Below are positions 5,311-39,255 of a DNA stretch of 64,000 nucleotides, one piece after another. Made by a program: the position numbers and the translations under genes. This stretch comes from Infirmifilum lucidum (GTDB lineage Archaea; Thermoproteota; Thermoprotei; Thermofilales; Thermofilaceae). The stretch is from positions 372,001-436,000 of the forward strand of contig NZ_CP062310.1 of the NCBI RefSeq assembly GCF_014876775.1, written 5' to 3'. A model generated the notes under the pieces. The model saw only the letters and a program-made list of their open reading frames with translations, searched no databases and was not told where the DNA came from. Every line of letters starts with the position of its first letter. The first letter of the stretch is position 1.

Positions 5311-6174
5311 TTATCCATGGGTTTGTCCCTCGGCCTTATTGTATGAGGTATTGTCTTTGCTCAAGTCCTTAATCCATTCCAGGAACTTTGGGGTGATGTG
5401 CCCAACGATTCTCTCCGCGGCTTCGTAGAGCTCCCTCAAATCTATTTCTAAGTATCTATGAACGAGGATGTTTCTCAGCGCCGCTAGCCTAGAGACGTCC
5501 TCCGCTAGATCCCTTGGCATGATGTTTGCGCGGGCTAGCCTGAGCGGGTATTCGCCGTAGCTTTCAACGAGTCCGAGGGAGTGGACTGCTATGAGGTGTC
5601 TACATATGTCTAGTATTGCCTCGATTATTCTGTGGACTGCTCTTTCGAGGGCTAAAACATCTTTGTATGTGAGTTCCTCGACCTTTTTAGTGAGTATCTC
5701 GCTCCTTAGGAAGTCCCTGTTCCTCCTAATCTCCTCGACTCTCGAGGATATGATGACCTCATCCACCTTGGGCTCTGGGTCGAGTGTGCCCCAGAGCCTG
5801 GTCTCCATTAGTTGGTCAGTGCCTAGGAGTGCCTTCTCTAGAAGCTTCATTAAGGCATCCTCGCTGCCCTTCACCACCACGCCTTCCTTTAACACCTTGA
5901 ATAAGAGCAGGGGCTTTGCCCCTCCCAGATCCACTATGTCTATGGCCTCTACCCCAACACCAAGCTTTTCAGCGATCCTCACGGCGAGCTCTGACAGGTC
6001 TAGGAGTGATTTCTCGGCGGAAAACCTCACGGCAATATCGATGTCGCGCGGGTTCGGGGAGCCGCGCGCCAACGAGCCGAACAGCACGGCCACTTCGACA
6101 TCCCTCAGCTCCGAGAACAGCTCCGATAGCCTCCTAACAACTTCACCCCTGTCAACAGCGCCTCCGCCCACCAT
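5311..6174 (-). CDS. MNT nucleotidyltransferase-HepT (HEPN) fusion
   Basis: One reading frame joins an MNT-type minimal nucleotidyltransferase to a HepT-like HEPN domain. The first ~100 residues carry FGSLARG followed by DID, the metal-binding pattern of MntA antitoxins, which AMPylate their partner. The last ~140 residues are helical and end with RNILVHRY, the R-x4-H-x-Y catalytic motif of HepT RNase toxins. The two are usually separate adjacent genes. I choose the ATG at 6174; a TTG at 6240 would overlap the ATPase gene upstream by 14 bases, but those extra residues look unlike a protein domain. It is the last gene after two ATPases. Cis-silencing of the RNase by its fused partner is inferred from the family. 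Confidence 0.75.
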   Translation of the reverse strand: MVGGGAVDRGEVVRRLSELFSELRDVEVAVLFGSLARGSPNPRDIDIAVRFSAEKSLLDLSELAVRIAEKLGVGVEAIDIVDLGGAKPLLLFKVLKEGVVVKGSEDALMKLLEKALLGTDQLMETRLWGTLDPEPKVDEVIISSRVEEIRRNRDFLRSEILTKKVEELTYKDVLALERAVHRIIEAILDICRHLIAVHSLGLVESYGEYPLRLARANIMPRDLAEDVSRLAALRNILVHRYLEIDLRELYEAAERIVGHITPKFLEWIKDLSKDNTSYNKAEGQTHG

Positions 6175-6226
6175 GGCTGGCTCACGGCTTAGCATGCCTG
6201 GCCTATGCGAACGACCAGCCTGCACT

Positions 6227-7252
6227 CTACCGCGCCTCAAGTGCCCTCCTAGCGGCCTCTCTGTGTAGGGGTGTCTGCCATGCGAAGTCCTCGCCTACGC
6301 CTAGCTCCCTGTCCACGGGAGGCGGCTGGTCTATCCACAGGAGCCGCTCCCTGGGAGGCAAGTAGGTCACGACTAGGTTTTGTTCCACTAACTTATTTAT
6401 CAAGTCTATCATTGGCCTCTTGTCCTCAGCCTCTCTAAGCCTGCGCAGGAGCGTATCTGGGTCATCTACGGCTTCCTCAAGAGCCGCTTGCTGGAGCGGC
6501 GTGAGCTCGCTCACAAGGGGCTTTACCCCCGCCACAAATATCCTCCTCACGACCGCCTCCACATCCCACCCGGCCTCATATAGCTCGCTCAAGTACCTAG
6601 GATTTCCACCTGTCCACATCCATACTTCCTCGAAGCCGGGCTTCTCACCTGGTAACTGCTCGTAGAGCAGCCTAAACCCCTCTCTCGGCATATTCCACAT
6701 ACCCCAAATCGTGGCCCAGTTATGCCTACCGATCCTTGATCTAGTCATCCCTTCACTGGAGCCTACGAGGATCACTACTTTTTCTATCGGTGTATTTGGG
6801 TACTCTATTAGGTTCAGCAACATCTTTACGTACATCTCAGCTTTACCAAGACCAATAGCCTGAAAAATGTCGTCAGCTAGAACAGCAATCTTCTCCCTAT
6901 ACCTCATGAGCATGGCAGCTATTTCTATAGCTTTCTCAACAAACCTAGCACCACTCTCCCCCAATGCCACTGACAATACAGGTTCAACCAACTCTCTAGC
7001 GTCCTCAGTAATGCTCAGTCTCCACATAGCTTCCTTTTCAAGGGGGCTAAAGTATACTACATAGTACCCCCACTCCTCCAACGCAGCCTTTGCCTGTCTG
7101 AATAAGGCTGTTTTCCCGCAGCCCTCAGGACCATATATAACATATACAGGGTAGGTACCTCTATCAGCTAATTCTTCTATCTGCCTAACCGCTATATCTC
7201 TATCGGTAAACACGACATTTAGGTCAGCTAATCTCAGTTTAATCCTCTTCAT
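6227..7252 (-). CDS. AAA ATPase of the archaeal ATPase family, paralogue 1
   Basis: A 341-residue P-loop ATPase. Walker A is GPEGCGKTAL (K47), Walker B is IAVLADD followed by IF, and VVILVGSSEG looks like a sensor strand. WTGGNPRYLSELY is typical of the archaeal ATPase_2/STAND-like families, and a helical C-terminal region follows. The C-terminus carries a motif shared by all copies here: WIDQPPPVDRELG, then FAWQTPLHREAARRAL. It overlaps paralogue 2 upstream by four bases, and its 3' end meets the MNT-HepT fusion. Members of this family often act as NTP-dependent switches, and linkage to HEPN-MNT genes suggests a role in controlling a toxin. That role is inference. Confidence 0.8.
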   Translation of the reverse strand: MKRIKLRLADLNVVFTDRDIAVRQIEELADRGTYPVYVIYGPEGCGKTALFRQAKAALEEWGYYVVYFSPLEKEAMWRLSITEDARELVEPVLSVALGESGARFVEKAIEIAAMLMRYREKIAVLADDIFQAIGLGKAEMYVKMLLNLIEYPNTPIEKVVILVGSSEGMTRSRIGRHNWATIWGMWNMPREGFRLLYEQLPGEKPGFEEVWMWTGGNPRYLSELYEAGWDVEAVVRRIFVAGVKPLVSELTPLQQAALEEAVDDPDTLLRRLREAEDKRPMIDLINKLVEQNLVVTYLPPRERLLWIDQPPPVDRELGVGEDFAWQTPLHREAARRALEAR

Positions 7253-8250
7253 GAACCAATCTCCCTCAATATCCTCCTAACGGCCTCCCTATGTAAAGGA
7301 GTCTGCCAAGCATATTTCTCTCCAATACCAAGCTCCTTATCTACAGGTGGCGGCTGATCTATCCATAGGTATGTATCTCTATAGCCAGTCTCAGATAGTA
7401 GGTTTAGCTCGGTGAGCTCTTGAATCAATCCCTCGGTTCTCGGATACTCGTCCCATAGATAATCAGGGTCCTCCACAGCCCTCTCAAGGCCCTGTCTCCA
7501 TTTTTTAGCTAGTTTATCAAGTCCCTTCCTCCTGACTAGGCCCTTCACGACTACTTCCACATCCCACTCAGCCTTATACAGTTCTGCTAAATATCTAGGG
7601 TTTCCTCCAGTCCACCTCCAGACCTCATCGAACGATGGCTTTTCACCAGATATTTGCTCATATAGCTCTCTAAATCCGTCTCTAGACATATTCCACATAC
7701 CTCTTAGCAATGCCCAGCTATGTCTACCAACCCTCACCCTGGTTGTCCCCTCGCTAGAACCCACCAATACCACAACCCTCTCTATAGGTGCAGAAGGATA
7801 TTCTATTAGGTTCAGCAACATCTTTACGTATATCTCAGCTCTCTCTAGGCCTACAGCCTGGAAGATGTCATCTGCTAAAACAGCAACTCTTTCTCTATAC
7901 CTCATAACCCTAGACGCTAGCTCTATAGCCCTCTCAACAAATTTAGCACCGTTTTCTCCTAGAAGAACCTCGAGAACAGGTTTTACGAGCTCTTTAGCAT
8001 CATCAGATACACTTAATCTGTATTCAAACTCCTTCTCCATTGGGCTAAAATATATTACTATGTAGCCATGCTCCTCAAGTATGGCCTTTGCCTGTCTAAA
8101 TAAGGCTGTTTTCCCGCAGCCCTCAGGTCCATATATAACATATACAGGGTAGGTACCTCTCTCAGCAAACTCCTCAACTTGTCTAAGAGCAGTATCCCTA
8201 TCAGCAAACTCCACATCTAGATCAGCCAGCCTCAGCTTAACCCTCCTCAC
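7249..8250 (-). CDS. AAA ATPase of the archaeal ATPase family, paralogue 2
   Basis: A 333-residue paralogue of the neighbouring ATPase with the same layout: Walker A GPEGCGKTAL, Walker B VAVLADDIF, VVVLVGSSEG, WTGGNPRYLAELY, and a C-terminal WIDQPPPVDKELGIGEKYAWQ block. The region between the ATPase core and that block (about residues 235-290) differs most between copies, so it may set the partner. The start is a GTG at 8250 that overlaps the TGA of a fourth, fragmentary copy, the GTGA coupling common in this window. Base composition is somewhat more AT-rich than in paralogue 3, so the copies probably did not arise by very recent duplication. Confidence 0.8.
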   Translation of the reverse strand: MRRVKLRLADLDVEFADRDTALRQVEEFAERGTYPVYVIYGPEGCGKTALFRQAKAILEEHGYIVIYFSPMEKEFEYRLSVSDDAKELVKPVLEVLLGENGAKFVERAIELASRVMRYRERVAVLADDIFQAVGLERAEIYVKMLLNLIEYPSAPIERVVVLVGSSEGTTRVRVGRHSWALLRGMWNMSRDGFRELYEQISGEKPSFDEVWRWTGGNPRYLAELYKAEWDVEVVVKGLVRRKGLDKLAKKWRQGLERAVEDPDYLWDEYPRTEGLIQELTELNLLSETGYRDTYLWIDQPPPVDKELGIGEKYAWQTPLHREAVRRILREIGS

Positions 8251-9519: not shown

Positions 9520-10581
9520 TCATAGGGCCTCGAGCGCCCTCCTAACAGCCTCCCTATGCAGGGGCATCTGCCATGCGAAAAATTCCCCAATGCCCAGCTC
9601 CCTGTCCACCGGCGGCGGTTCGTCAATCCACCCATGGGGCTCCCTAGACGGCAGATAGTCAACTATTAAGTTCTCCTCCACCAGCCTGTTTATCAGGTCT
9701 ACCATTGGCCTCTTGTCCTCAGCCTCCCTAAGCCTACGCCTAAGCACGTCGGGATCCTCCACAGCCTCCGCCAGCACCTCACGCTGAAGCGGAGTAAGCC
9801 TGTCCACGAAAGACCTAAGCTTCCTCTCACGTATGAAATTGCTGATAAAGACCTCAACGTTCCACCTGGCCTCGCAAAGCTTGGCTAGGTACCCGGGGTT
9901 CCCCCCGGTTACTCTCCACATGTCCTCGAGTGGGGGTTTCTCCCCCGGCAGTTGATCGTACAACCGCTTGAACCCCTCCCTTGGCATATTCCACATGGCT
10001 ACTATATGAGACCATCTATGTCTGCCGATCTTCTCCCTAGTCTCCCCCTCGCTTGAGCCCACCAGCACGACTATCTTCTCTACCGGCCTTGAGGGGTACT
10101 CTATGAAGTTGAGCAATATCTTCACGTATATCTCTGCCTTGTCTAAGCCAACCGCCTTGAATATGTCGTCCGCCAGAACAGCGATCCTCCTTTTGCCCCT
10201 CCTTATTGCCCATGTAATTAAGTTGAGAGCATACTCGACCAGAGCGGCGGGGGCCTCGCCGCCGACGGCCCCCGTCAGCCTCGTCAAGAGGCGTGCAAGC
10301 TTGTCCACAGCCAGCTTAGGCTTGAAATCGTCGGTGGCGATTAGCCTATCTCTAGCCTCCCTCTCGAGGGGGCTTATGTACACAACGCTGTAGCCCCTCT
10401 CGCGGAGCACCTCGAAGGCCTGCCTGAACAAAGCGGTCTTGCCGCAGCCCTCCGGCCCGTAGACCACCAGGGGGAAGCGGGTGCCCCTCTCTGCGAAGTC
10501 CCCGACCTGGCGGATGGCCACATCCCTATCCACGAACTCAACGTCCACACCCGGGACGAAGCGGAGCCTGATCCGCATCAT
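9520..10581 (-). CDS. AAA ATPase of the archaeal ATPase family, paralogue 3
   Basis: A 353-residue ATPase of the same family as those at 6.2-8.3 kb. It has Walker A GPEGCGKTAL, Walker B IAVLADDIF, VVVLVGSSEG, a VTGGNPGYLAKL stretch, and a closing WIDEPPPVDRELG and FAWQMPLHREAVRRAL. Its ATG lies on the stop codon of the MNT gene at 10581, so translation of the two is coupled. Here the order is HepT, MNT, ATPase, the reverse of the 5.3-8.3 kb module (ATPase, ATPase, MNT-HepT). The repeated association in both orders argues that ATPase and HEPN-MNT work together. The exact role of the ATPase is unknown. Confidence 0.8.
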   Translation of the reverse strand: MMRIRLRFVPGVDVEFVDRDVAIRQVGDFAERGTRFPLVVYGPEGCGKTALFRQAFEVLRERGYSVVYISPLEREARDRLIATDDFKPKLAVDKLARLLTRLTGAVGGEAPAALVEYALNLITWAIRRGKRRIAVLADDIFKAVGLDKAEIYVKILLNFIEYPSRPVEKIVVLVGSSEGETREKIGRHRWSHIVAMWNMPREGFKRLYDQLPGEKPPLEDMWRVTGGNPGYLAKLCEARWNVEVFISNFIRERKLRSFVDRLTPLQREVLAEAVEDPDVLRRRLREAEDKRPMVDLINRLVEENLIVDYLPSREPHGWIDEPPPVDRELGIGEFFAWQMPLHREAVRRALEAL

Positions 10582-10964
10582 TACCGCTCCACCGCCTCGA
10601 TCAGCCTTAGCTCGTCCAGCGCCCTGCTCAGCAACGCCTCGTAGAGCCCCGGTGCCTTCTCCACGACCACGATCCCCTTCAGCGCCCTTATTGTTAGCGT
10701 GGGCGGCGCCTCGTCTAGAGGGACTAGATCCACTGGCACTCCCAGCTCCATCTCCAGCCTCGCGCCCAGTGTTAGGTAGTAGTGCAGGTCGGCGTCAACA
10801 GCGTAGACTGCAACGTCTACGTCTCTGTACACCTCGCCCTCCGCGAAGCTCCCGAAGACCGTGGCCAGGAGGACTTTTGGCTCCGTCCCCAGAATCCTCC
10901 TCAGCCCTCCTAGCACCTCCTCCCTCCTCCCCCTGTAGTAGGTGTACCTCTCCTCAAACTCCAT
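10581..10964 (-). CDS. MNT-type nucleotidyltransferase (MntA-like antitoxin)
   Basis: About 127 residues with the minimal nucleotidyltransferase signature VFGSFAEGEVYRDVDVAVY, where the GS loop and paired aspartates bind metal and ATP. In characterised HepT-MntA pairs this protein AMPylates a tyrosine of the HepT RNase to silence it. I prefer the ATG at 10964, which overlaps the end of the HepT gene by 11 bases; an upstream in-frame start at 10985 adds seven residues. The gene ends on the start codon of ATPase paralogue 3. Family assignment is firm, and the antitoxin role is from known relatives. Confidence 0.78.
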   Translation of the reverse strand: MEFEERYTYYRGRREEVLGGLRRILGTEPKVLLATVFGSFAEGEVYRDVDVAVYAVDADLHYYLTLGARLEMELGVPVDLVPLDEAPPTLTIRALKGIVVVEKAPGLYEALLSRALDELRLIEAVER

Positions 10965-11217
10965 AGAGCCTTTTAATCCTCTCAACGAGGCTTACTACCT
11001 TTTTAAAATTCCTTCTCGCTTCGTCATGTATTTTCTTGTCGTCCACGACCCAGTACCTGTGGACGAGGAGGTTCCTCAACCTTATGAGCCTAGCCACGTC
11101 CTCCACCTCATCCACGGTTACAAGCCCCCTCTCGGCGAGGAGCCTCAACGTCGCAGTCGGAGTCTCTGGGGCTAGGCTAAAGCCCCTCCTGGCTATGTGG
11201 TGTAGAGCCGCGGTCAA
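10954..11217 (-). CDS. HepT-like HEPN protein, N-terminally shortened
   Basis: An 87-residue product with the HepT motif LRNLLVHRYW (R-x4-H-x-Y) and a following helix, so the RNase active site is present. Full HepT proteins are about 130-140 residues. Here only about eight more in-frame codons precede the TTG at 11217 before a stop, so most of the first helices is missing. The adjacent end of the flippase gene (stop at 11262) may mark the point where the 5' part was lost. It overlaps the MNT gene downstream. It is either a reduced but working toxin or a remnant, and the sequence alone does not decide. Confidence 0.6.
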   Translation of the reverse strand: MTAALHHIARRGFSLAPETPTATLRLLAERGLVTVDEVEDVARLIRLRNLLVHRYWVVDDKKIHDEARRNFKKVVSLVERIKRLYGV

Positions 11218-28384: not shown

Positions 28385-28879
28385 CTACTTGCTTCCTGGT
28401 GGTATTTCGCCCAGCATCTTTTCAAGCTCGCTTTTGGGAATCTTCCTCCTTATCCTCCATCCCTCACCGTACCTCTCTATCCCTAACGCATTTCTAACTT
28501 TCTCGTAAAGTGCTCTAGCCCTGCTCCACGTTCCGTCGTCCACGAGAACCTTGCCGTACTCAAAGGCCTCTATTATCTCGACTTCAGCCCTCATTATCCC
28601 CTCTACTAGTTCCTCCCACGTATACGGCCTTGCATCGACGACCCCAAAGCCCTTCGTGCTCCACAGGGCCTCCCCCAACTTACAGTCGGATACTATGACC
28701 AGGTCTATGTCGCTCCACTTCTTCCAGGCCCCCCTAGCCCTAGACCCGATAACAACTGCAGACCTTATCCTAGCGTGTTTTGAGAGCTCTCCTAGAAACT
28801 TCATTGCAAAATCAACGGCCTTGCTCCCGTCCCAGATTTCCCCAATATCTACGCTAGATGCCTCCCCAGCACCCGCCAT
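28385..28879 (-). CDS. MNT-type nucleotidyltransferase, partner of HEPN protein
   Basis: A 164-residue protein with the minimal nucleotidyltransferase motif AVVIGSRARGAWKKWSDIDLVIV, where GS and the DID aspartates form the active site. The C-terminal ~60 residues are longer than in MntA alone and contain RRKIPKSELEKML. It overlaps the HEPN gene upstream by 31 bases. In characterised pairs the nucleotidyltransferase modifies and silences the HEPN RNase. Unlike the two loci at 5-11 kb, no ATPase is adjacent here. Confidence 0.78.
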   Translation of the reverse strand: MAGAGEASSVDIGEIWDGSKAVDFAMKFLGELSKHARIRSAVVIGSRARGAWKKWSDIDLVIVSDCKLGEALWSTKGFGVVDARPYTWEELVEGIMRAEVEIIEAFEYGKVLVDDGTWSRARALYEKVRNALGIERYGEGWRIRRKIPKSELEKMLGEIPPGSK

Positions 28880-29256
28880 AACTCATCCATCACCTCTACA
28901 CACATCCTAGCCACACCCTCGTCGTACGTTATACTAAACCTCGTGGCAGCGTCAGGGTAGCGGGAAGCATAGTAGTGGACGGTGAGTTTTCCCAGGGACT
29001 CCACCAATTCCACCAATTCGACAACCCTACTCGAGGCCTCTTCAGCGAGCCTCCCTAAATCGTGTACAGGCATGAAAACCCCCTCTTTGATCAAGAGCGC
29101 CTTTAGAAGCTTCTCACAAGACTGCTGAGCGTGGAAGCAAGCCTCGCTCCAGGATCCCCTCTCGACAGCATTGTGGGCCTCAACCCTATCCCGGCGCGCG
29201 TAAACGACCCAGCTCCTCCACTCATCATCATTTAGCCTCGGCAAACCACTCACCAA
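28849..29256 (-). CDS. HEPN-domain protein (archaeal type)
   Basis: A 135-residue helical HEPN protein. WVVYARRDRVEAHNAVERGSW, then CFHAQQSCEKLLKALLIKEG, then HDLGRLAEEA and YYASRYPDAA fit the classic HEPN family. This branch lacks the R-x4-H-x-Y motif of HepT, so RNase activity is less certain; some such proteins only bind nucleotides. The ATG at 29256 has a TATA-like gtaaatttaacg about 20-27 bases upstream on the minus strand, suggesting a short leader. It is co-translated with the MNT gene. A toxin-antitoxin role is inference from the family. Confidence 0.75.
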   Translation of the reverse strand: MVSGLPRLNDDEWRSWVVYARRDRVEAHNAVERGSWSEACFHAQQSCEKLLKALLIKEGVFMPVHDLGRLAEEASSRVVELVELVESLGKLTVHYYASRYPDAATRFSITYDEGVARMCVEVMDELWRVLGRHLA

Positions 29257-29495: not shown

Positions 29496-30518
29496 TTAGA
29501 GGGGGCTCTTAAGGTACACATCTAGGTACTGTTGGAAGACGACGTCCCAGTTGTACCTGGACACTACCCTATCGTAGGCGGTTCTGGCCAAATTCTCGGC
29601 TAGCCTCCTGTCGCTCAAGAGCTCTCTAATTCTCTCTGCTAGCTCGGCCGGCCTGCCGGGCTCGACGAGGAGCCCCGCTCCCCCCTCTAGCAACTCTACG
29701 TTGCCCCCCACTCTCGTCGCCACGCAGGGGACTCTCAGGGCCATCGCCTCTAGGAGCGCGGTGCTCAAGCCCTCGTGGTACGAGGGTAGCACGAACACGT
29801 CGCTGCCTTTAAGTAGTTTAAGCGCCTCGCTGCGGGGCCTATAGCCTAGGACGTGTATCCTGGGGCTCCTAGCGGAGAGCTTGTCGACTAGCGGCCGCAG
29901 GGGGCCGTCACCCACAATAAGTAGGTCTGCGTCAACGTCGTGTAGCAGGAAAGCCTTGACCAGGTCTAATACCCCCTTCTCTTTTGAAAGCCTCCCAACG
30001 TACACTACCTGCCTGTCGTACAGCCTCACAGCTTCACGCGGAAGATCCCTTAGGTCTATAGCATTTGGAACGTGGTTGACGCTGAATCCCATCCTCCTGT
30101 ACTTCTCCGTAACATCCCTCGAGACAGCAGTGATGGCATCAGCCCAGCCCAGAGCGACGCGCTCAACAGCACGCGCCAGATGGCCAAGCCCGCGCCCATA
30201 GAGGAATGATATCTGGTCAGAAAAAACACCGTGGAGAGTGAGAACCCTCCTCCCACTCACAACCCTCATAGCAAAGGCGGACGGGATGTTATGTGCATGC
30301 ACGACATCGTAACTCTTCCTCTTAGAAATCAACATGAGGCTAGATAATGCAATGAAACTTAAATTAGCTAGGCCTTTTTTCCTTAGACAACCGACTTTCC
30401 CGCAGGCTAAGACTTCTACTTCAAAATTCCTCTCAATAAGCTTTTTGACAAGTTTTGAAACATGCTGAGCGACACCTCCAATGCCACTAAATGTAGGAGA
30501 TATAATTAGTATTTTCAA
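29496..30518 (-). CDS. GT4 family glycosyltransferase
   Basis: About 340 residues of a GT-B enzyme. It starts KILIISPTFSGIGGVAQHVSKL with the GT4 glycine loop, followed by DVVHAHNIPSAF. The C-terminal domain has VVYVGRLSKEKGVLDLVKAFL, LIVGDGPLRP and the EX7E motif EGLSTALLEAM. I prefer the TTG at 30518 because the protein fold starts there; an upstream in-frame TTG at 30545 adds nine residues. It is divergent from the GT2 gene at 30.6 kb and lies at the border of an AT-rich stretch: the 5' part of the gene is AT-rich and the 3' part is not, hinting at a composite origin. Confidence 0.83.
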   Translation of the reverse strand: MKILIISPTFSGIGGVAQHVSKLVKKLIERNFEVEVLACGKVGCLRKKGLANLSFIALSSLMLISKRKSYDVVHAHNIPSAFAMRVVSGRRVLTLHGVFSDQISFLYGRGLGHLARAVERVALGWADAITAVSRDVTEKYRRMGFSVNHVPNAIDLRDLPREAVRLYDRQVVYVGRLSKEKGVLDLVKAFLLHDVDADLLIVGDGPLRPLVDKLSARSPRIHVLGYRPRSEALKLLKGSDVFVLPSYHEGLSTALLEAMALRVPCVATRVGGNVELLEGGAGLLVEPGRPAELAERIRELLSDRRLAENLARTAYDRVVSRYNWDVVFQQYLDVYLKSPL

Positions 30519-30590
30519 AGTATATAACACCTTTTGTGCACTCAAGGGAGATATTTTTATATTTGTCGTAATTTAAACCTAACTTACGCT

Positions 30591-31577
30591 ATGAGAAGGC
30601 CTTATGAGTATAAGGTCTCCTGTGTTATGATGGTTAAGAGTCCAGACACCTATACACTTAAAATTTCACTCTCATCAGTATGCAATGCTGATTGCCTTGA
30701 TGAAATAATCCTAGTTACACCTTTCCCTGAAAAGTTTATATGGGTAGAGGAAGTTTGCCCAAAAGCGAGGCTTGTAAAAGATCCAGGGTGTGGAATCGGG
30801 ATTGCAAGAAATTATGGCATAGCTAGTTCGAGAAACGAAATAGTAGCTTTTGTTGATCCAGATGCTGTAGTAGGGGAAAACCATTTCTGCACGATTCTTA
30901 AAACTTTTGATGACCCATCCGTAGGACTCGTCGATGTTATAAGTACCTTCAGTCCAAAATCATTTAAAAACTATACTAAAGTCCAACTTCTCGAGAATTT
31001 TGTTTGGAAATATGGAAGAGTCGCACAACTCAGAAGCGAGAACGTCATATATGCTGGTGGAACTTTTATGGCATTACGGAAAAGCTTGTGGAAGGAAGTG
31101 GGCGGTTTCTGGAAATATCCTCCTTATGGCTCAGACGACATGGACTTCAGCTATAGAGTGTATAAAAAAGGTTATAAATGCAAGAGAATAAGAGTTCATG
31201 GATCCTTTCATATTCCCAGACCGACACTAAGGGAACTATTTCGTGAACAATATGGCTGGGGGAAAGGCTTTGCTATCCTCTTGCTAAAATACAACCAGGA
31301 GAAAGAATTTTGGCTCTCACTTCGCTATAGTAAGATCCTATACAATATTATTCCAAGCTGTTATTGGTTTTTAATCCCTGTATTAAGAGCAATTGCGGCT
31401 CCCATAGGTGGGTTAGTGAATTCAATCCGCCTTGGAAACATGAGCTTCTTACCTTTCTGGGTCTTTAGGAGGTACGCATTCTTACTGGGCTTTATTAGAG
31501 GTTTACATGATTATATGCTGTTTACTAAACTTTCAAGGAATAAGGCTAGTCTCTGCGCTAAGATACGCCACTCGTAG
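30591..31577 (+). CDS. GT2-like glycosyltransferase
   Basis: A 328-residue GT-A enzyme from the ATG at 30591; 19 extra codons upstream are open but look non-coding. It has VSCVMMVKSPDTYTLKISL, ARNYGIASSRNEIVAFVDPDAVV with a DPD metal site, GGTFMALRKSLWKEVGGF and GSDDMDFSYRVYKKGYK, the order found in GT2 family enzymes, with a hydrophobic C-terminal part near 265-310. A TATA-like tttttatatttg at about 30551-30562 fits a short leader. The gene is clearly AT-rich compared with its surroundings, and its 3' end overlaps the convergent GT4 gene by 67 bases. Confidence 0.78.
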   Translation: MRRPYEYKVSCVMMVKSPDTYTLKISLSSVCNADCLDEIILVTPFPEKFIWVEEVCPKARLVKDPGCGIGIARNYGIASSRNEIVAFVDPDAVVGENHFCTILKTFDDPSVGLVDVISTFSPKSFKNYTKVQLLENFVWKYGRVAQLRSENVIYAGGTFMALRKSLWKEVGGFWKYPPYGSDDMDFSYRVYKKGYKCKRIRVHGSFHIPRPTLRELFREQYGWGKGFAILLLKYNQEKEFWLSLRYSKILYNIIPSCYWFLIPVLRAIAAPIGGLVNSIRLGNMSFLPFWVFRRYAFLLGFIRGLHDYMLFTKLSRNKASLCAKIRHS

Positions 31578-32680
31578 TTCTGTAAAATATCATTGTACGC
31601 GTTTTCACCTAGTTGTAATCGCAAATCTCTATCTTCTATTAAAGTGACTATTTTTTCAGAAAAATCTTCTACATCGTTTAATTTCGTAAGCGAGGCATTA
31701 AACCCATTCCTTAGAACACCTTTTGCTCCAGGGGTTTCCTCGGCTACTATGGCTTTTCCTGCAGCCATATACTCAAACATTTTCATACGCTCGGCATAGT
31801 AAATTGATGGGTAAGTCGATGCCGGTAGGATACATATGTCTGCGGCACTAAACATACTCTGCCTAATAATAGATGATGATGGCAGAGGAGGGATCCATAA
31901 AACTTGATTGAGTGTTGCAGTCTCCTTAAAAGCTTTGTAGAGTATTCTATCTAATGGAGAATTTAGGATTAATGTAACTTTTTTACTCGGTAAATATTTC
32001 CTAAGTCTGTCTAGAATGTTAGGTAATTTGTCGACACCTTGGTAGTCTTCTCCTCTCGATCCACGCCAAATCCCTCCGCTGTATAAAAGCTTAAATCTGT
32101 TCTTTAAAAACGGATATTTATTAATAAATATTGAGTCCCCTATTTTCCTCGGATTAAATAAATTAAGTGAGACACCAAATGGTAGATACAGTGAGCGTAT
32201 ATTGGGTATGATTCCCTTCAAACGGCTCATAAAAGCTTTGCTCCAGAAAATAACGCCATCAGAATTTTTTAAATTAAGATAGTGATAGTAGGGTAGTTCT
32301 GCACCTTCTTCAAGGATAACGTCCATATAATCTATTATCGCTAAGCCTTTGAAAATGCTTTTCTTTAACTCTAAAGCTCCCATAGGGTTAAGTAGGAAAG
32401 CAATATGGTACTCGGTGCTATATAAACTTAAGAGGAATCCTTGAAGTGACCAAGTTATAGGTCTAAAAGGCCTGAGTTTATCCAGTCCAGCGATAAGTGG
32501 CCACGTTAGCGATTTCTTTAATATTGACTTGTATGTGATAAAGTGCATGGAATAACCTAGATTCTTTAAGGCTTGATGGAAAAGTAAAGGTCGGGAAATG
32601 TTCTTTATATCCCGGAAGGACACGTAGATGCTCTTCCTATTAGACAACATAGTTCCACAACTAATAGTTGTTGTGTTCAA
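31511..32680 (-). CDS. GT4-like glycosyltransferase, AT-rich
   Basis: A 389-residue GT-B type enzyme. The acceptor domain starts at SIYVSFRDIKNISRPLLFHQ. The donor domain has FKLLYSGGIWRGSRGEDYQGV, ADICILPAS and ERMKMFEYMAAGKAIVAEETPG, which takes the place of the EX7E motif. The ATG at 32680 is given; the ATG at 32650 is a good alternative because the fold begins just after it. The base composition is like the convergent GT2 gene and unlike the GC-rich genes on either side, so the two were probably acquired together. The substrate is unknown. Confidence 0.75.
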   Translation of the reverse strand: MNTTTISCGTMLSNRKSIYVSFRDIKNISRPLLFHQALKNLGYSMHFITYKSILKKSLTWPLIAGLDKLRPFRPITWSLQGFLLSLYSTEYHIAFLLNPMGALELKKSIFKGLAIIDYMDVILEEGAELPYYHYLNLKNSDGVIFWSKAFMSRLKGIIPNIRSLYLPFGVSLNLFNPRKIGDSIFINKYPFLKNRFKLLYSGGIWRGSRGEDYQGVDKLPNILDRLRKYLPSKKVTLILNSPLDRILYKAFKETATLNQVLWIPPLPSSSIIRQSMFSAADICILPASTYPSIYYAERMKMFEYMAAGKAIVAEETPGAKGVLRNGFNASLTKLNDVEDFSEKIVTLIEDRDLRLQLGENAYNDILQNYEWRILAQRLALFLESLVNSI

Positions 32681-33606: not shown

Positions 33607-34290
33607 CTAGCTCTTCTCTCCCTGTTGTTTCTCGCGCTCCTTCATCCTCTTGTAGGCTAGCCCTACCATTATAGCCGCGTACATGTGTAGCTTCCACGCC
33701 TCCGGGTACTCCCCGTACTCCATTACGGCCTTCCTCGCGAGGTTTAGGAGTTCCTGGGCTTCCTCTAGCGTCAACTCCTCCTTCTCGCTCTTGTCCAGGA
33801 GGTCGCCGAGCCTCTTCCACTCGTCCTTCGTGAACGGGTTCGAGACTGCGAGCCTCATGAGGTTCCTGGCCTCCGTCACGACTAAGCTAGCAGCGCTCGG
33901 CTTTAGAACCCCCTCCGAGACGAAGTACCCTGTGAGAAACTCCTGGTAGCTTATGAAGGCATAGGCGAGCCTCTCGAGCCTCCTGTCAACCCTCTCCTCT
34001 AGCCTGGAGAGCCTCTCCTCCAGCCCCTCGATCCTCCTGTTCACGTCATCGAACCTTCTATCTATGGCGTCGAACTTCTTGTCCACTTCATTAAACCTTT
34101 TATTAATTTCTTCAAATCTTCTATCTACTTCTCTGAATCTTGCACTGAACTCCTCAAACCTCATGTCTATCTCTTTGAACCTCATGTCTATTTCTCTGAA
34201 TTTGCCCCCTAGCCAGTACGACAGGTAGAGTACTGTTGCTAGCCCGCCTATCCCGCCAATCGCCGAGAGGATGCTAAGTATGTCTTCCAT
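33607..34290 (-). CDS. Membrane-anchored coiled-coil protein
   Basis: A 227-residue protein. A helix at about residues 4-27 is followed by a long coiled coil (28-108) built of seven-residue units of the type RFxEIDx, such as RFKEIDMRFEEF and RFREVDRRFEEI. At DNA level this shows as imperfect 21-bp repeats around 34050-34200. A helical C-terminal domain (110-215) follows, with NPFTKDEWKRLGDLLDKSEKEELT. Similar coiled-coil proteins are common in crenarchaea, with no known function. A TATA-like cgtataagt lies about 35 bases upstream of the ATG on the minus strand. It is probably a single-gene unit. Confidence 0.65.
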   Translation of the reverse strand: MEDILSILSAIGGIGGLATVLYLSYWLGGKFREIDMRFKEIDMRFEEFSARFREVDRRFEEINKRFNEVDKKFDAIDRRFDDVNRRIEGLEERLSRLEERVDRRLERLAYAFISYQEFLTGYFVSEGVLKPSAASLVVTEARNLMRLAVSNPFTKDEWKRLGDLLDKSEKEELTLEEAQELLNLARKAVMEYGEYPEAWKLHMYAAIMVGLAYKRMKEREKQQGEKS

Positions 34291-34434: not shown

Positions 34435-36177
34435 GTGGCTGGTTTGGGGTACAAAGTCGTGCTCGCCTCAATAGCCTCGCGCAAGGCCCTCGCTATCGGC
34501 AGTTCCCTCAGGACTGCTCTGGGGGCTACAGTTGTCGGCGTGTCGCACAGGAAGCACCCCTTTGTGTATTCGAGGCTCTTCGACGAAGTCTTCGTACTGG
34601 AGGGCGCCCCGAGAGGAGGTTTAGAATGGGGCCTTGCTGTCCTCGAGGTCGCTGAGAGAGTTGGCGCTGAGGTTATCGTGCCCGTGGACTTCCTGGACGT
34701 CGTCTCGCTGTCCAGGGTCAAGGGCCGCGCCAGGGCTACGGTGGCGGCCCCCGCTTACGAGTCTGTTGCCGCGGCCTCGAACAAGGCTAGCCTTGGGGGT
34801 CTCCTGGGGGACGGAGTCGTCCCGGCCTCTGTAGTAGTACCGGACAGTTCAGGGGTCGACGCGGTTTACAGCCTCAGGCCCCCTCTCGTCGTTAAGGGTC
34901 TAAGCGACGCTGCCAGCCCCGAGTTCTTCCCCGACGCTAGCAGTGCAGCAAGGGCGGCTGCGGCCAGAGCCCCCTGCCTCGTGCAGGAGTACGTGCCGGG
35001 GAGAGGTAGGGGCTACGAGGTGGTGGCCTTCGAGGGTGAGCCTCTACTTGAGTTTGCACACGAGAGAGTTGTCGAGTACGACCCTGGGGGCGGGGCTAGC
35101 CTGGGGGCTAGGGGCCCTGTTTTAGACCCGGAGCTCTACAGGCTTGGCAGGTTTGTCGTCTCCAGGCTACGCTGGACTGGGCCGCTCATGGTTGAACTCA
35201 AGTGGATCCCGGCTGAGGGCAGGTACTTCGTCATCGAGCTTAACCCGAAGTTCTGGGGGAGCCTCGACCTCCCAGTATCGCTTGGCTACCACTTCCCCGC
35301 TGTACTCGTAAAGGCCTTTCTAGAGGGGGTAGAGGAGGCGAGGAGGTTTGCTGGAGAGCTCAGAGTGGGGAGCGGGGAGTTCTACTGGCTCCTCGACGGC
35401 TTCAGGTACATGGCCAAGCTACCGGGAACATGGCTCTACATGGCCCGGAGGGCTAGGCGTAGCGACTTCAGCCTGTTAGACCCCGCTAGGGTTGCTCTCC
35501 AGGTAGTGGCTGCCGCCAAGAGGCTGGAGACCGAGAAGAGTAGCTGGGCGCATTCGCTTGAGAGGGACTACGCGAAGCTGAGAGAATTCTACAGGGGGCT
35601 GTTCAGGGGAGGGAGGCCCCTCGTAATCCTGGACTTCGACGGCGTCATCGCGAGGCTGCATGTGGACTGGAAGCGTGTGTACAGGGTTCTCGAGGAGAGA
35701 AGCTACCGCAGGCGGTGGGAGACTGTGGTAGGCATGTTCCGCAGGCTGTGGCTTGAAGACGTATACAAGTTCGAGGAGGCCTCCCGCACAGTGGAGGAGT
35801 TCGAGCGTGTAGCCCGCGCTGAAAGGATCCTAGATGAAGGCGTGCTCAGAGGCCTAGACTTCTGCGTAGCTAGCATGCAACCCGAGTCTGTCCTGAGGAA
35901 GTTCATAGGGGAGGGCGTCGTATTGGGGCGCGACAGCGGCCTCGGCCCCCTAAAGAGCGAGATGTTCCGGGAGTGCGTCAGGAGGGCTGGGGGGAGGGGG
36001 CCTGTCGTAGTGTTCGACGACGACCTCTACAACTGCGTGGTTGCCATGAGGATGGGCTTCTACCCCGTGAGGGTTGTGGATAACCCCTACAGGGCGGTCG
36101 AGGCCCTGAGGCTAGGTATACTGCCCGTGGATACAAGCCTCCTTGGGAAGTTCCTGCACAAGCTGAAGTCCCCGTAG
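34435..36177 (+). CDS. ATP-grasp ligase fused to a HAD-like phosphatase domain
   Basis: A 580-residue two-domain protein from a GTG. Residues 1-330 form a carbamoyl-phosphate-synthase-like ATP-grasp: an N-terminal Rossmann part (VVLASIASRKALAIGSSLR), PPLVVKGL and PCLVQEYVPGRGRGYEVVAF in the nucleotide-binding part, and the metal ligands in LMVELKWI and YFVIELNPKFWGS. A helical linker follows (~335-395). Residues ~398-570 are HAD-like: VILDFDGVIARL (motif I, nucleophile Asp about 401), FCVASMQPESVLRKF, and VVVFDDDLYNC (motif IV). ATP-grasp enzymes join a carboxylate to an amine; here the product may be a modified sugar or glycan precursor. The fusion is uncommon and the substrate is unknown. 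Confidence 0.75.
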   Translation: MAGLGYKVVLASIASRKALAIGSSLRTALGATVVGVSHRKHPFVYSRLFDEVFVLEGAPRGGLEWGLAVLEVAERVGAEVIVPVDFLDVVSLSRVKGRARATVAAPAYESVAAASNKASLGGLLGDGVVPASVVVPDSSGVDAVYSLRPPLVVKGLSDAASPEFFPDASSAARAAAARAPCLVQEYVPGRGRGYEVVAFEGEPLLEFAHERVVEYDPGGGASLGARGPVLDPELYRLGRFVVSRLRWTGPLMVELKWIPAEGRYFVIELNPKFWGSLDLPVSLGYHFPAVLVKAFLEGVEEARRFAGELRVGSGEFYWLLDGFRYMAKLPGTWLYMARRARRSDFSLLDPARVALQVVAAAKRLETEKSSWAHSLERDYAKLREFYRGLFRGGRPLVILDFDGVIARLHVDWKRVYRVLEERSYRRRWETVVGMFRRLWLEDVYKFEEASRTVEEFERVARAERILDEGVLRGLDFCVASMQPESVLRKFIGEGVVLGRDSGLGPLKSEMFRECVRRAGGRGPVVVFDDDLYNCVVAMRMGFYPVRVVDNPYRAVEALRLGILPVDTSLLGKFLHKLKSP

Positions 36178-36714: not shown

Positions 36715-37422
36715 GTGCCCAAAGCAGTTATCCTGGCTGGGGGGCCCGGGAAGAGGCTGAAGCCGCTTACGGATGATAGGCCCAAGCCCCTCGTCGAGGT
36801 CGGCGGCAGGCCCATCGTCGCCTGGCAGGTTGAGTGGCTGAGGAGGCAGGGCGTCTCGGCCTTCATAGTGTGTGTCGGCTACCTCAAGGAGAAGTTCCTC
36901 GAGGTGATCGGCAACGGCTCGAGGCTCGGCGTGAAGGTGTACTACTCGGTTGAGGAGGAGCCCCTGGGGACTGGGGGCGCGCTCAAGAACGCCGAGCCCC
37001 TGCTGGGGGGCGAGGAGGTCTTCCTCGTCGTCAACGGAGACGTCCTGACGGACATCGAGGTCTCCAGGCTCCTCGAGAAGGCCAGGAACGCTGTCGGCGC
37101 GATTGCACTAGTGCCTCTGCCCAGCCCGTACGGCGTGGTGGAGACCGAGGGGGACGTGGTGACGAGCTTCGTCGAGAAGCCCCTGCTGAGGGGCTACTGG
37201 ATCAACGCTGGCGTCTACGCCTTCACCCCCAGGGTCTTCGAGTACCTGCCCGAGAAGGGGGACATCGAGCGCGAGGCGTTCCCGAGGATCGCCAGGGAGG
37301 GGTTCTTGAGGGCCGTGAAGTACGAGGGCGCGGCGTGGAAGAGCGTCGACACGCACAAGGACATCGAGGAGGCTGAGAGGAACGTCGTGCCGCGGTTGAA
37401 GGCCTTCCTGGGGGAGAGCTAG
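36715..37422 (+). CDS. Sugar-1-phosphate nucleotidyltransferase
   Basis: A 235-residue GT-A-like nucleotidyltransferase. The signature AVILAGGPGKRLKPLTDDRPKPL binds NTP (GG and the KR pair). FIVCVGYLKEKF, EEEPLGTGGALKNAEPLL, VVNGDVLTD with the metal Asp, and VTSFVEKP follow in family order. It makes an NDP-sugar such as GDP-mannose or dTDP/UDP-glucose. The short length without a left-handed beta-helix domain fits the single-domain mannose-1-phosphate guanylyltransferase or RmlA-like groups. It starts with GTG. It would supply a donor to the glycosyltransferases of this region. Confidence 0.87.
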   Translation: MPKAVILAGGPGKRLKPLTDDRPKPLVEVGGRPIVAWQVEWLRRQGVSAFIVCVGYLKEKFLEVIGNGSRLGVKVYYSVEEEPLGTGGALKNAEPLLGGEEVFLVVNGDVLTDIEVSRLLEKARNAVGAIALVPLPSPYGVVETEGDVVTSFVEKPLLRGYWINAGVYAFTPRVFEYLPEKGDIEREAFPRIAREGFLRAVKYEGAAWKSVDTHKDIEEAERNVVPRLKAFLGES

Positions 37423-37583: not shown

Positions 37584-38015
37584 TTGGGGGACAACCCCCA
37601 AACGTGGACGAGATTGAGGAGCACTAGACACGTCAAGTACTGGTGCGCTTATCACTTCGTCTGGGTTCCGAAGTACCGCAGAGACGTCTTAATTAATGGG
37701 GTTAGGGAATATGCTAGGGAGGTCTTGTCCCAAATACTTAAAGAGCTGGGCTGTGAGCCCCTGGCGCTAGAGGTCATGCCCGACCACGTCCACGTCTTCA
37801 CCATATGTCCCCCGAGGCACTCCCCATCATACGTGGCGCGGTACCTAAAGGGTAAGAGTGCGAGGAAAATACTGCAGAAGTTCCCGGAGTTGAGGGCAAG
37901 GGTGAAAAGCGGCAAGTTGTGGAGTAGGAGCTACTTCGTGGCAACGGTGGGAAACGTGACCGCGGACGTTGTAAGGAAGTACGTGGAGGAGCAGTGGAAA
38001 CATGAGGAGGACTAG
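37584..38015 (+). CDS. tnpA: TnpA, IS200-type Y1 transposase
   Basis: A 143-residue HUH single-strand transposase. The metal-binding pair is in PDHVHVF (His-x-His), the catalytic tyrosine is in VRKYVEEQ (about residue 135), and the N-terminal HVKYWCAYHFVWVPKYRR is the usual opening of the family. It cuts and rejoins single-stranded DNA at the element ends. The open frame starts at TTG 37584; a TATA-like gtttataagg lies at 37542-37551. Its end overlaps tnpB by 14 bases. Full length, with no inactivating change seen. Confidence 0.92.
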   Translation: MGDNPQTWTRLRSTRHVKYWCAYHFVWVPKYRRDVLINGVREYAREVLSQILKELGCEPLALEVMPDHVHVFTICPPRHSPSYVARYLKGKSARKILQKFPELRARVKSGKLWSRSYFVATVGNVTADVVRKYVEEQWKHEED

Positions 38016-39255
38016 TGTTGTTAGGCTACTACCGAATAAAGGCGAGGAGGGTAAGTTAAAGTTGCTCTGCTCCCTCTCGGCTAGGCTGTGGAACGAAGTG
38101 AACTATGAGAGGAGGAGGCAGTTCTTCTCCAAAAAGGGCGTCGACATGAGAGGCACGTATAAGACGTACTACGAGAAATATAAGGTGCTGATCGGCTCGG
38201 CCACGGCGCAACAAGTGCTCAATAAGAACGACGAGGCCTGGAGATCCTTCTTCGCCTCGCTGAGGAAAAAGAAAACTGGTGGACTGCCTAGGCACATAAC
38301 CAAGGTGGATCCACCCGGGTACATGAAGGACGGGGGGAGGAGGAAGCTGTGGGCCGTGCTCAGAAATGACCAGTACAAGATCGAGGGCGACAAGCTTATC
38401 CTCAAGGGGCTGGGTGCAATCGGCAGGCTCGAGGTCGAGTATAGGGGCGAGATCCACCTGAGGGGGGAGCAGGGCAGGCTTGAGATAATAAACGTAGACG
38501 GAGCATGGTATGCCCACATCAGCTTCGAGGCCGAGGAGAAGGCCGTGAGGGGGGCCTGGCGCGAGGTGCCCGGGACGCCCAGAGGCGGTTTAAGGGCCGG
38601 CGTCGACGTCGGCATAAACAACCTCTTGGCCGTATACGTTGAGGACGGCAGAACCGCGCTGTACAGCGGGAGGCCGCTTAAGGCTATCGCCTTCTACTAC
38701 AGACGCAAAATCGCCGATTATCAATCCACGCTTAACGGGTCGAGAACGTCCAAGAGGCTTAGGAGGCTCTACAGGAAGTGGCTTAGGAAGGCAAGGCACT
38801 TCATAAACACTCAGGTCAGGAGGGCTATCGAGTGGCTCTACGAGGGTGGCGTGTCCACAATATACGTTGGCTATCCGAAGGAGATAGCGCGGAATAATGG
38901 CAACTTCTATACGGTGAACCTATGGCACTACGGCTACTTGCTTAAGAGGGTCGTCGAGGTGGCCGAGGAGTACGGGATCAATGCGGTTCTCGTCCCCGAG
39001 GAGGGGACATCAAAGAGATGCCCAATACACGGCGAGGGTTGCGGCATTAGGATAAAAAGAGGGCTATTTAAATGTACGAAGTCGGGCATCGTATTCAACG
39101 CAGACCTGGTGGGCGCATACAACATAATGGCCAAGTCCATAGCCCCGAGTCCCGCGGGGGATAGGGGTAATGGGCCGGACACCCGGCCCGGGGCTGAACC
39201 CGACGGGAATGTAGCCCCAAACCTCCCCGCCCTGGCAGGAACCCTCGCCCTTTAG
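38002..39255 (+). CDS. tnpB: TnpB, RNA-guided nuclease-type transposon protein
   Basis: A 417-residue TnpB/OrfB. The first RuvC aspartate is in AGVDVGINNLLAVY, the last in NADLVGAYNI, and the zinc-binding part reads RCPIHGEGC and later FKC. The mid RuvC strand reads IYVGYPKEIARNNG instead of the usual VExL form, as in a subgroup of archaeal TnpBs. TnpB uses an RNA made from the element's right end to cut DNA and help the element persist. The stop codon is part of the right-end hairpin (LAL then TAG in CTTTAG). The ~70-residue tail after NADLVGAYNI is proline- and glycine-rich. Confidence 0.9.
   Translation: MRRTSVVRLLPNKGEEGKLKLLCSLSARLWNEVNYERRRQFFSKKGVDMRGTYKTYYEKYKVLIGSATAQQVLNKNDEAWRSFFASLRKKKTGGLPRHITKVDPPGYMKDGGRRKLWAVLRNDQYKIEGDKLILKGLGAIGRLEVEYRGEIHLRGEQGRLEIINVDGAWYAHISFEAEEKAVRGAWREVPGTPRGGLRAGVDVGINNLLAVYVEDGRTALYSGRPLKAIAFYYRRKIADYQSTLNGSRTSKRLRRLYRKWLRKARHFINTQVRRAIEWLYEGGVSTIYVGYPKEIARNNGNFYTVNLWHYGYLLKRVVEVAEEYGINAVLVPEEGTSKRCPIHGEGCGIRIKRGLFKCTKSGIVFNADLVGAYNIMAKSIAPSPAGDRGNGPDTRPGAEPDGNVAPNLPALAGTLAL

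Follow-up and report, generated by a model that had tools for sequence, protein, structure and literature searches.

An ATP-grasp ligase and a HAD phosphatase, each with its active-site residues intact, are predicted to be joined in one protein of the archaeon Infirmifilum lucidum. We tentatively propose that this fusion carries out two of the three steps in a sugar-tailoring module, the third of which would fall to a WbmS-like hydrolase encoded upstream (Table 1). The fusion gene lies within a window of 64,000 nucleotides (positions 372,001 to 436,000 of contig NZ_CP062310.1) of a 1.63-Mb genome assembled as a single contig. Direct support for the proposal consists of the intact active-site residues, the recurring genomic linkage between the three activities, and the occurrence of unrelated stand-ins for the phosphatase or the hydrolase.

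Table 1 Features of the fusion locus; positions are those of the window.
Feature	Position	Strand	Basis or remarks
Fused ATP-grasp–HAD gene	34435..36177	+	Open frame, 580 aa, GTG start
ATP-grasp half	34450..35598	+	Placed by profiles; K154, E254, E268, N270 invariant 17/17; PDB profile match 2pn1
HAD half	35611..36165	+	Placed by profiles; D400, D402, D529 invariant 17/17; PDB profile matches 3sd7, 3s6j
WbmS-like NodB-type hydrolase (probable deacetylase), recurring partner, 250 aa	32755..33507	+	Relatives adjoin fusion; family profiles; invariant His/Asp/Arg
Coiled-coil-like gene between hydrolase and fusion	33607..34290	-	Also in L018 and L020; absent from other fused loci compared
Glycosyltransferase PF00534 (context)	31511..32680	-	Relatives of 35-38% identity in split-module loci L026 and L019
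Glycosyltransferase PF00534 (context)	29496..30545	-	Relatives in L020 (70%) and L026 (40%)

The initial annotation had described an ATP-grasp ligase fused to a HAD phosphatase-like domain, with catalytic signatures kept in both parts, and this description held. The frame was open, the motifs IELNPKFWGS, DFDGV and VFDDD were all present, and the acidic catalytic residues, together with N270, were invariant across an alignment of 17 fused proteins. The ATP-binding Lys and metal-binding Glu/Asn that define the ATP-grasp superfamily were found in 17/17; we take K154 to be the former and E254, E268 and N270 to be the latter. All four motifs that define the HAD superfamily (DxD, Ser/Thr, Lys/Arg and an acidic motif IV) were also found. 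An alignment of fused and operon HADs (29 rows) kept both Asp residues of motif I, the Ser/Thr, the Lys/Arg and the Asp of motif IV (D529) in all 28 rows that had a residue at each position. The frame is not a chance one, since relatives with 73% identity (G001, G006) and 48-51% identity (G002, G009, G012, G024) keep the same architecture over their full length. A TTG at 34444 may serve as an alternative start, because close relatives, read by eye, begin at the matching Met-Gly-Tyr. These results confirmed, at the level of sequence, that one chain joins two intact enzyme halves.

Assignment of the protein to a well-known family, which the initial annotation had named as the outcome that would count against it, did not follow from domain searches. 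A Pfam scan of the whole window protein matched 0 families, and NCBIfam linked the first half weakly to carbamoyl-phosphate-synthase-like proteins (best E 2.1e-4). The HAD half by itself matched PF00702 weakly (E 0.0036). A profile of the 17 fused proteins was more sensitive against the PDB, with matches to the ATP-grasp structure 2pn1 (E 7.4e-7) and, as the best HAD phosphatase, to 3sd7 (E 1.4e-8), and Pfam searches with individual fused proteins matched PF15632 (11/17), PF13419 (9/17), PF00702 (9/17) and PF02655 (6/17). Predicted structures of the window fusion and the L018 fusion, with mean pLDDT of 34.1 and 42.5, were too poor for use. The closest known relatives of the first half are ATP-grasp carboxylate–amine ligases of the carbamoyl-phosphate-synthase-like type (2pn1, PF15632, PF02655), which share its profile and keep the Glu/Asn and Lys; the window protein, however, falls below the Pfam models and has a HAD domain attached. 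The second half shares all four motifs and a profile match with HAD phosphatases of PF13419/PF00702 (3sd7, 3s6j, 2nyv), whereas the fused HADs are linked to a ligase and form their own group on the HAD tree (96/97).

The same architecture was sought in other genomes, as the initial annotation had advised, and was found. In a first set of 61 genomes (host included), 15 had any match and seven of these were full length; the nearest named relative found, with 73% identity, was in the MAG 'Thermofilum sp. NZ13', and a contig scan gave a single relative (L018). Sampling of 398 Thermoproteota genomes gave matches of some kind in 253. At least 16 of the 398 carried the full-length fusion among the matches listed, and the listed matches that were not full length covered one half. 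One fusion locus (G064) came in through its hydrolase, and 17 fused proteins were aligned. All fused ATP-grasps fell to the same side of a branch with support of 98/100. With the fused HADs likewise grouped together, a single fusion event is the simplest reading of these trees, which were midpoint-rooted with thin outgroup sampling.

The initial annotation missed the recurring partner of the fusion, the WbmS-like hydrolase. This gene adjoined the fusion in 14 of 17 fused genomes, a count that includes the window and G001, where one opposite-strand gene intervenes, and G002, whose hydrolase gene runs into a contig end. In G006, a weaker NodB gene lay 2.7 kb from the fusion and overlapped a weakly FemAB-like gene (E 0.0013; L018). 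The fusion of G262 had no adjoining hydrolase; a fragment with a stop in frame was found on another contig (L144:5407-5577), and G262 has apparently lost this partner. A different gene occupied the hydrolase position in G379. The intervening coiled-coil-like gene of the window is probably outside the module.

The window hydrolase itself matched 0 families in Pfam, while 10 of 21 relatives matched PF22537 (WbmS-like) and 4 of 21 matched PF01522. Its family profile matched 3rxz in the PDB (E 1.7e-8); the match to the structure of WbmS, 3hft, was weak (E 0.13). H7, D8, D10, H95, H123, D173 and H211 were invariant in all 21 aligned sequences, with Arg also among the invariant residues, and these residues would suit a metal site. 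NodB proteins take acyl groups off amino sugars. The window copy is described here as a NodB-type, probable deacetylase, the deacetylase activity of the family resting on its name. A search of the host genome with PF22537 gave no match and was uninformative, as 0 of 14 control genomes gave one either. No function for Bordetella WbmS was found in the literature searched, including passages of PMC3849452 and PMC12407052.

Linkage was also counted from the hydrolase side, with a strong hydrolase defined by E 1e-40 or better. An ATP-grasp gene lay less than 3 kb away from 27 of 31 strong hydrolases. Those without a counted neighbour were G063, in which the fusion is split over two contig pieces and the hydrolase adjoins the broken-off HAD end of its own fusion; G014 and G115, where contig ends leave one side visible and no ATP-grasp gene lies there; and G204, where the neighbour is truly absent. 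Some of the 31 loci had been fetched via the ligase, so the hydrolases first found by hydrolase profile give a cleaner figure, with an ATP-grasp neighbour in 13 of 14 testable cases. This figure combines 6/6 (eight strong new hydrolases, G063 and G014 set aside) with 7/8 (nine strong new ones, G115 set aside and G204 negative), and is biased to one branch of the family because the profiles were built mostly from neighbour-positive members. As a control, 0 of 14 weak-NodB loci found via the hydrolase (L066-L070, L135-L143) had an ATP-grasp gene, several of these stretches being short; six further weak NodB genes, fetched via their ATP-grasp, have such a neighbour. NodB-type deacetylase genes were also seen beside an annotated formyltransferase gene in Haloarcula halobia (L121:8977-10601) and beside a formyltransferase gene in G399 (L143:4882-6907; PF02911, E 2.8e-20).

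Split neighbours, through which the initial annotation had hoped to name the pathway, were found and point to a carbohydrate route. In eight genomes (G005, G018, G135, G215, G232, G276, G347, G360), separate genes on one strand encode the hydrolase, the ATP-grasp and the HAD, in that order. The ATP-grasps of these sets form a distant class, a 100/99 branch away from the fused class. The HAD may have been recruited independently in the fused and operon forms, on a tree that does not resolve how generic and operon HADs part. Among the seven ATP-grasp-positive new hydrolase loci of the second profile round, six also had a HAD gene, the exception being G259. Together with G259, the genomes G022, G061, G027 and G020 had a hydrolase and an ATP-grasp with no HAD within the fetched stretch, which in G022 stops at a contig edge.

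The phosphatase position can be filled by an unrelated enzyme. Eight stand-alone ATP-grasp loci (L106-L113) were fetched from the part of the tree that holds the fused ligases, and in five of them (G195, G182, G202, G132, G093) a PHP-domain gene was adjacent to the ATP-grasp or within ~1.3 kb of it; no PHP gene lay near the ATP-grasp in L107, L108 and L109. PHP genes were seen at the place expected for the HAD, beside or near ATP-grasps akin to the fused class, in L106, L110, L111, L112, L113 and L117. On a haloarchaeal plasmid of Natribaculum luteum, genes annotated as a deacetylase, a PHP protein and an ATP-grasp overlap; this deacetylase is of another NodB type, as its match to the WbmS-like profile did not reach E 1e-4. 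No other tight trio was seen among the 10 annotated plasmid regions viewed; the hydrolase and ATP-grasp genes were 5 kb apart in Haloprofundus and 7 kb apart in Halorussus, and the remaining regions held one of the two. De-N-acetylases of the PIG-L family were found in two ATP-grasp clusters (L109, L110).

The hydrolase position is also exchangeable. A gene of ~290 aa, here called gene B, was found in 9 of 398 genomes, and none of these was among the 45 WbmS-like hydrolase matches. Gene B is weakly GH43-like: two of six members matched PF04616 (glycosyl hydrolase 43; best E 0.0024), the other four matched nothing in Pfam, and its profile had no match in the PDB. In eight genomes (G047, G049, G056, G070, G071, G072, G074, G077), gene B lies upstream of an ATP-grasp and a HAD gene on the same strand, and in G379 a B-related piece (33% identity over 120 aa) precedes the fused gene. 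The gene B frame had stops or breaks in G070 and G072, and the ATP-grasp match was broken between frames in G070, G071, G072 and G074. The gene B loci are L019:8671-9540, L150-L154 and L083:2-538, in genomes from which the WbmS-like hydrolase is absent. The hydrolase and ligase trees, midpoint-rooted and with few outgroups, were discordant. The hydrolases of fused systems occupied at least three places of the hydrolase tree, forced by supported branches, and the fused ligases formed one group, so the partners have probably re-associated over time, an outcome more in keeping with a shared pathway than with passive co-inheritance. With the three-gene sets, the PHP genes in place of HAD, and gene B in place of the deacetylase, the hydrolase, ligase and phosphatase appear to make up a three-part module with exchangeable components.

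ATP-grasp ligases use ATP to activate a carboxylate, which they then transfer to an acceptor such as an amine, and both HAD and PHP proteins hydrolyse phosphate esters. In the proposed module, the hydrolase would strip the N-acetyl group from an amino sugar, the ATP-grasp half would spend ATP on acylating the exposed amine with a carboxylic acid (possibly an amino acid), and the HAD half would remove phosphate from the sugar or the acyl part, before or after acylation. The fusion may couple amide or ester formation with phosphate hydrolysis in one protein, as the initial annotation had envisaged. A sugar is the likeliest substrate, because both kinds of hydrolase partner (NodB and GH43-like) are carbohydrate-type enzymes. 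The NodB genes that adjoin formyltransferase genes (L121, L143) and the weakly FemAB-like gene (L018) favour a sequence in which an amine is exposed and then acylated at the expense of ATP. The linkage counts of 27/31 and 13/14, the eight three-gene genomes, the PHP and GH43-like stand-ins, and the tree discordance all support the three-step proposal. Set against it are the G262 fusion without an adjoining hydrolase, the G204 hydrolase without a ligase, the five pairs without HAD, the match of PF22537 to just 10/21 hydrolases, and the possibility that the GH43-like stand-in differs in chemistry. Also against it, the neighbours in several loci, judged by eye, are unlike glycan genes, and the 10 plasmid regions yielded one tight trio and two spaced pairs (5-7 kb).

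The three-step logic resembles that of mycothiol synthesis, which relies on a phosphatase, a deacetylase and a Cys ligase to process an amino-sugar conjugate (PMC4360819). The order of chemistry proposed here is common to mycothiol and bacillithiol (MshA2, MshB, MshC; BshB, BshC), with a phosphatase in mycothiol only (PMC4360819). The likeness is one of steps and not of enzyme families. Deacetylation and ligation in mycothiol and bacillithiol synthesis are performed by enzyme families other than those of the archaeal module.

Sugar tailoring would also be retained if the ATP-grasp half joined its carboxylate to a different acceptor, as in uronic acid amidation or ester formation, with the WbmS-like protein acting as another kind of carbohydrate hydrolase. 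NodB-type proteins include non-deacetylases, and gene B, which can replace the hydrolase, would not deacetylate; we nevertheless consider this unlikely, since NodB relatives beside formyltransferase and FemAB-like genes, and PIG-L proteins in two ATP-grasp clusters, suit the exposure of an amine. It is more doubtful still that the HAD half has a house-cleaning role, removing phosphorylated by-products of the ATP-grasp half and taking no part in the pathway. The five hydrolase–ligase pairs without HAD, one of them at a contig end, are compatible with such an accessory role, and generic HADs are common, most of the 253/398 matches being the HAD half alone or other ATP-grasps. Fused HAD, operon HAD and PHP proteins, however, each recur beside the ligase, beyond what an optional repair need would produce.

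We regard it as quite improbable that these are independent glycan genes brought together merely by residence in glycan clusters. Several of the loci are glycan clusters, the window being one by Pfam and others by eye, yet the pair also occurs where the neighbours are, by eye, unlike glycan genes (L025, L059, L100-L104). The hydrolase and ligase genes, moreover, overlap or sit within tens of bases of each other in most loci, and do so in three arrangements (19 hydrolase-first, four ligase-first and four divergent). Membership of a Ter-type pathway was set aside as scarcely credible. Such tellurite-associated pathways are proposed to build a nucleoside-like compound with an ATP-grasp and a HAD phosphatase. 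PF15632 (ATPgrasp_Ter) matched 11/17 fused proteins but was also matched in 13/14 control genomes, and its best matches in fused genomes were mostly frames of ~1,030-1,100 aa other than the fusion, and PRTase_2 (PF15609), the sole marker tested, was over cut-off in 0/17 fused genomes, with 2/17 sub-threshold.

The three-step module may, more broadly, represent an undescribed route to sugar conjugates that was assembled repeatedly in Thermoproteota and has a counterpart in at least one haloarchaeon, although this wider reading is somewhat unlikely as a whole. All three activities would have been swapped in such a pathway (NodB or GH43-like, two ATP-grasp classes, HAD or PHP) and two of them fused in the window lineage, and the product could be a free mycothiol-like conjugate. 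The module was not described in any title or abstract start among the papers listed by the searches, which is weak evidence because subscription papers fell mostly outside the search. A set of uncharacterised archaeal genes gains a testable function, and several kinds of genomic evidence connect the three activities. Should the product be an acyl or aminoacyl amino sugar, the module would represent new tailoring chemistry for archaeal glycans, or else a new conjugate from organisms with a little-known small-molecule repertoire. With two active sites expected to work on neighbouring intermediates, the fusion offers a natural probe.

Downstream of the fusion, the nucleotidyltransferase gene at 36715-37422, which the initial annotation had mentioned as lying near the promoter of the fusion, was rejected as a conserved partner: it recurs in the two closest loci (84-85% identity) and otherwise as one 36% match in L019. 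In L018, the nucleotidyltransferase and the fusion are on opposite strands. A putative promoter of its own for the fusion gene, which had also been suggested, is reasonable because the gene upstream of it is divergent. Just downstream of the nucleotidyltransferase gene sits an IS200/IS605-type pair on the plus strand, in which a Y1 transposase gene (37584-38015; PF01797, E 3.5e-39) overlaps a TnpB-like gene (38002-39255; PF01385, PF07282). Elsewhere in the window are an overlapping nucleotidyltransferase/HEPN pair on the minus strand (28385-28879 with 28849-29256; PF01909, PF05168), a gene listed as a Polbeta and HepT-like fusion (5311-6240, minus) and a lone nucleotidyltransferase gene (10581-10985, minus). 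These nucleotidyltransferase/HEPN genes are possible toxin-antitoxin systems. Three archaeal ATPase paralogues, similar by eye, are encoded on the minus strand at 6227-7252, 7249-8250 and 9520-10581, the first of which matches PF01637 (E 8.7e-63).
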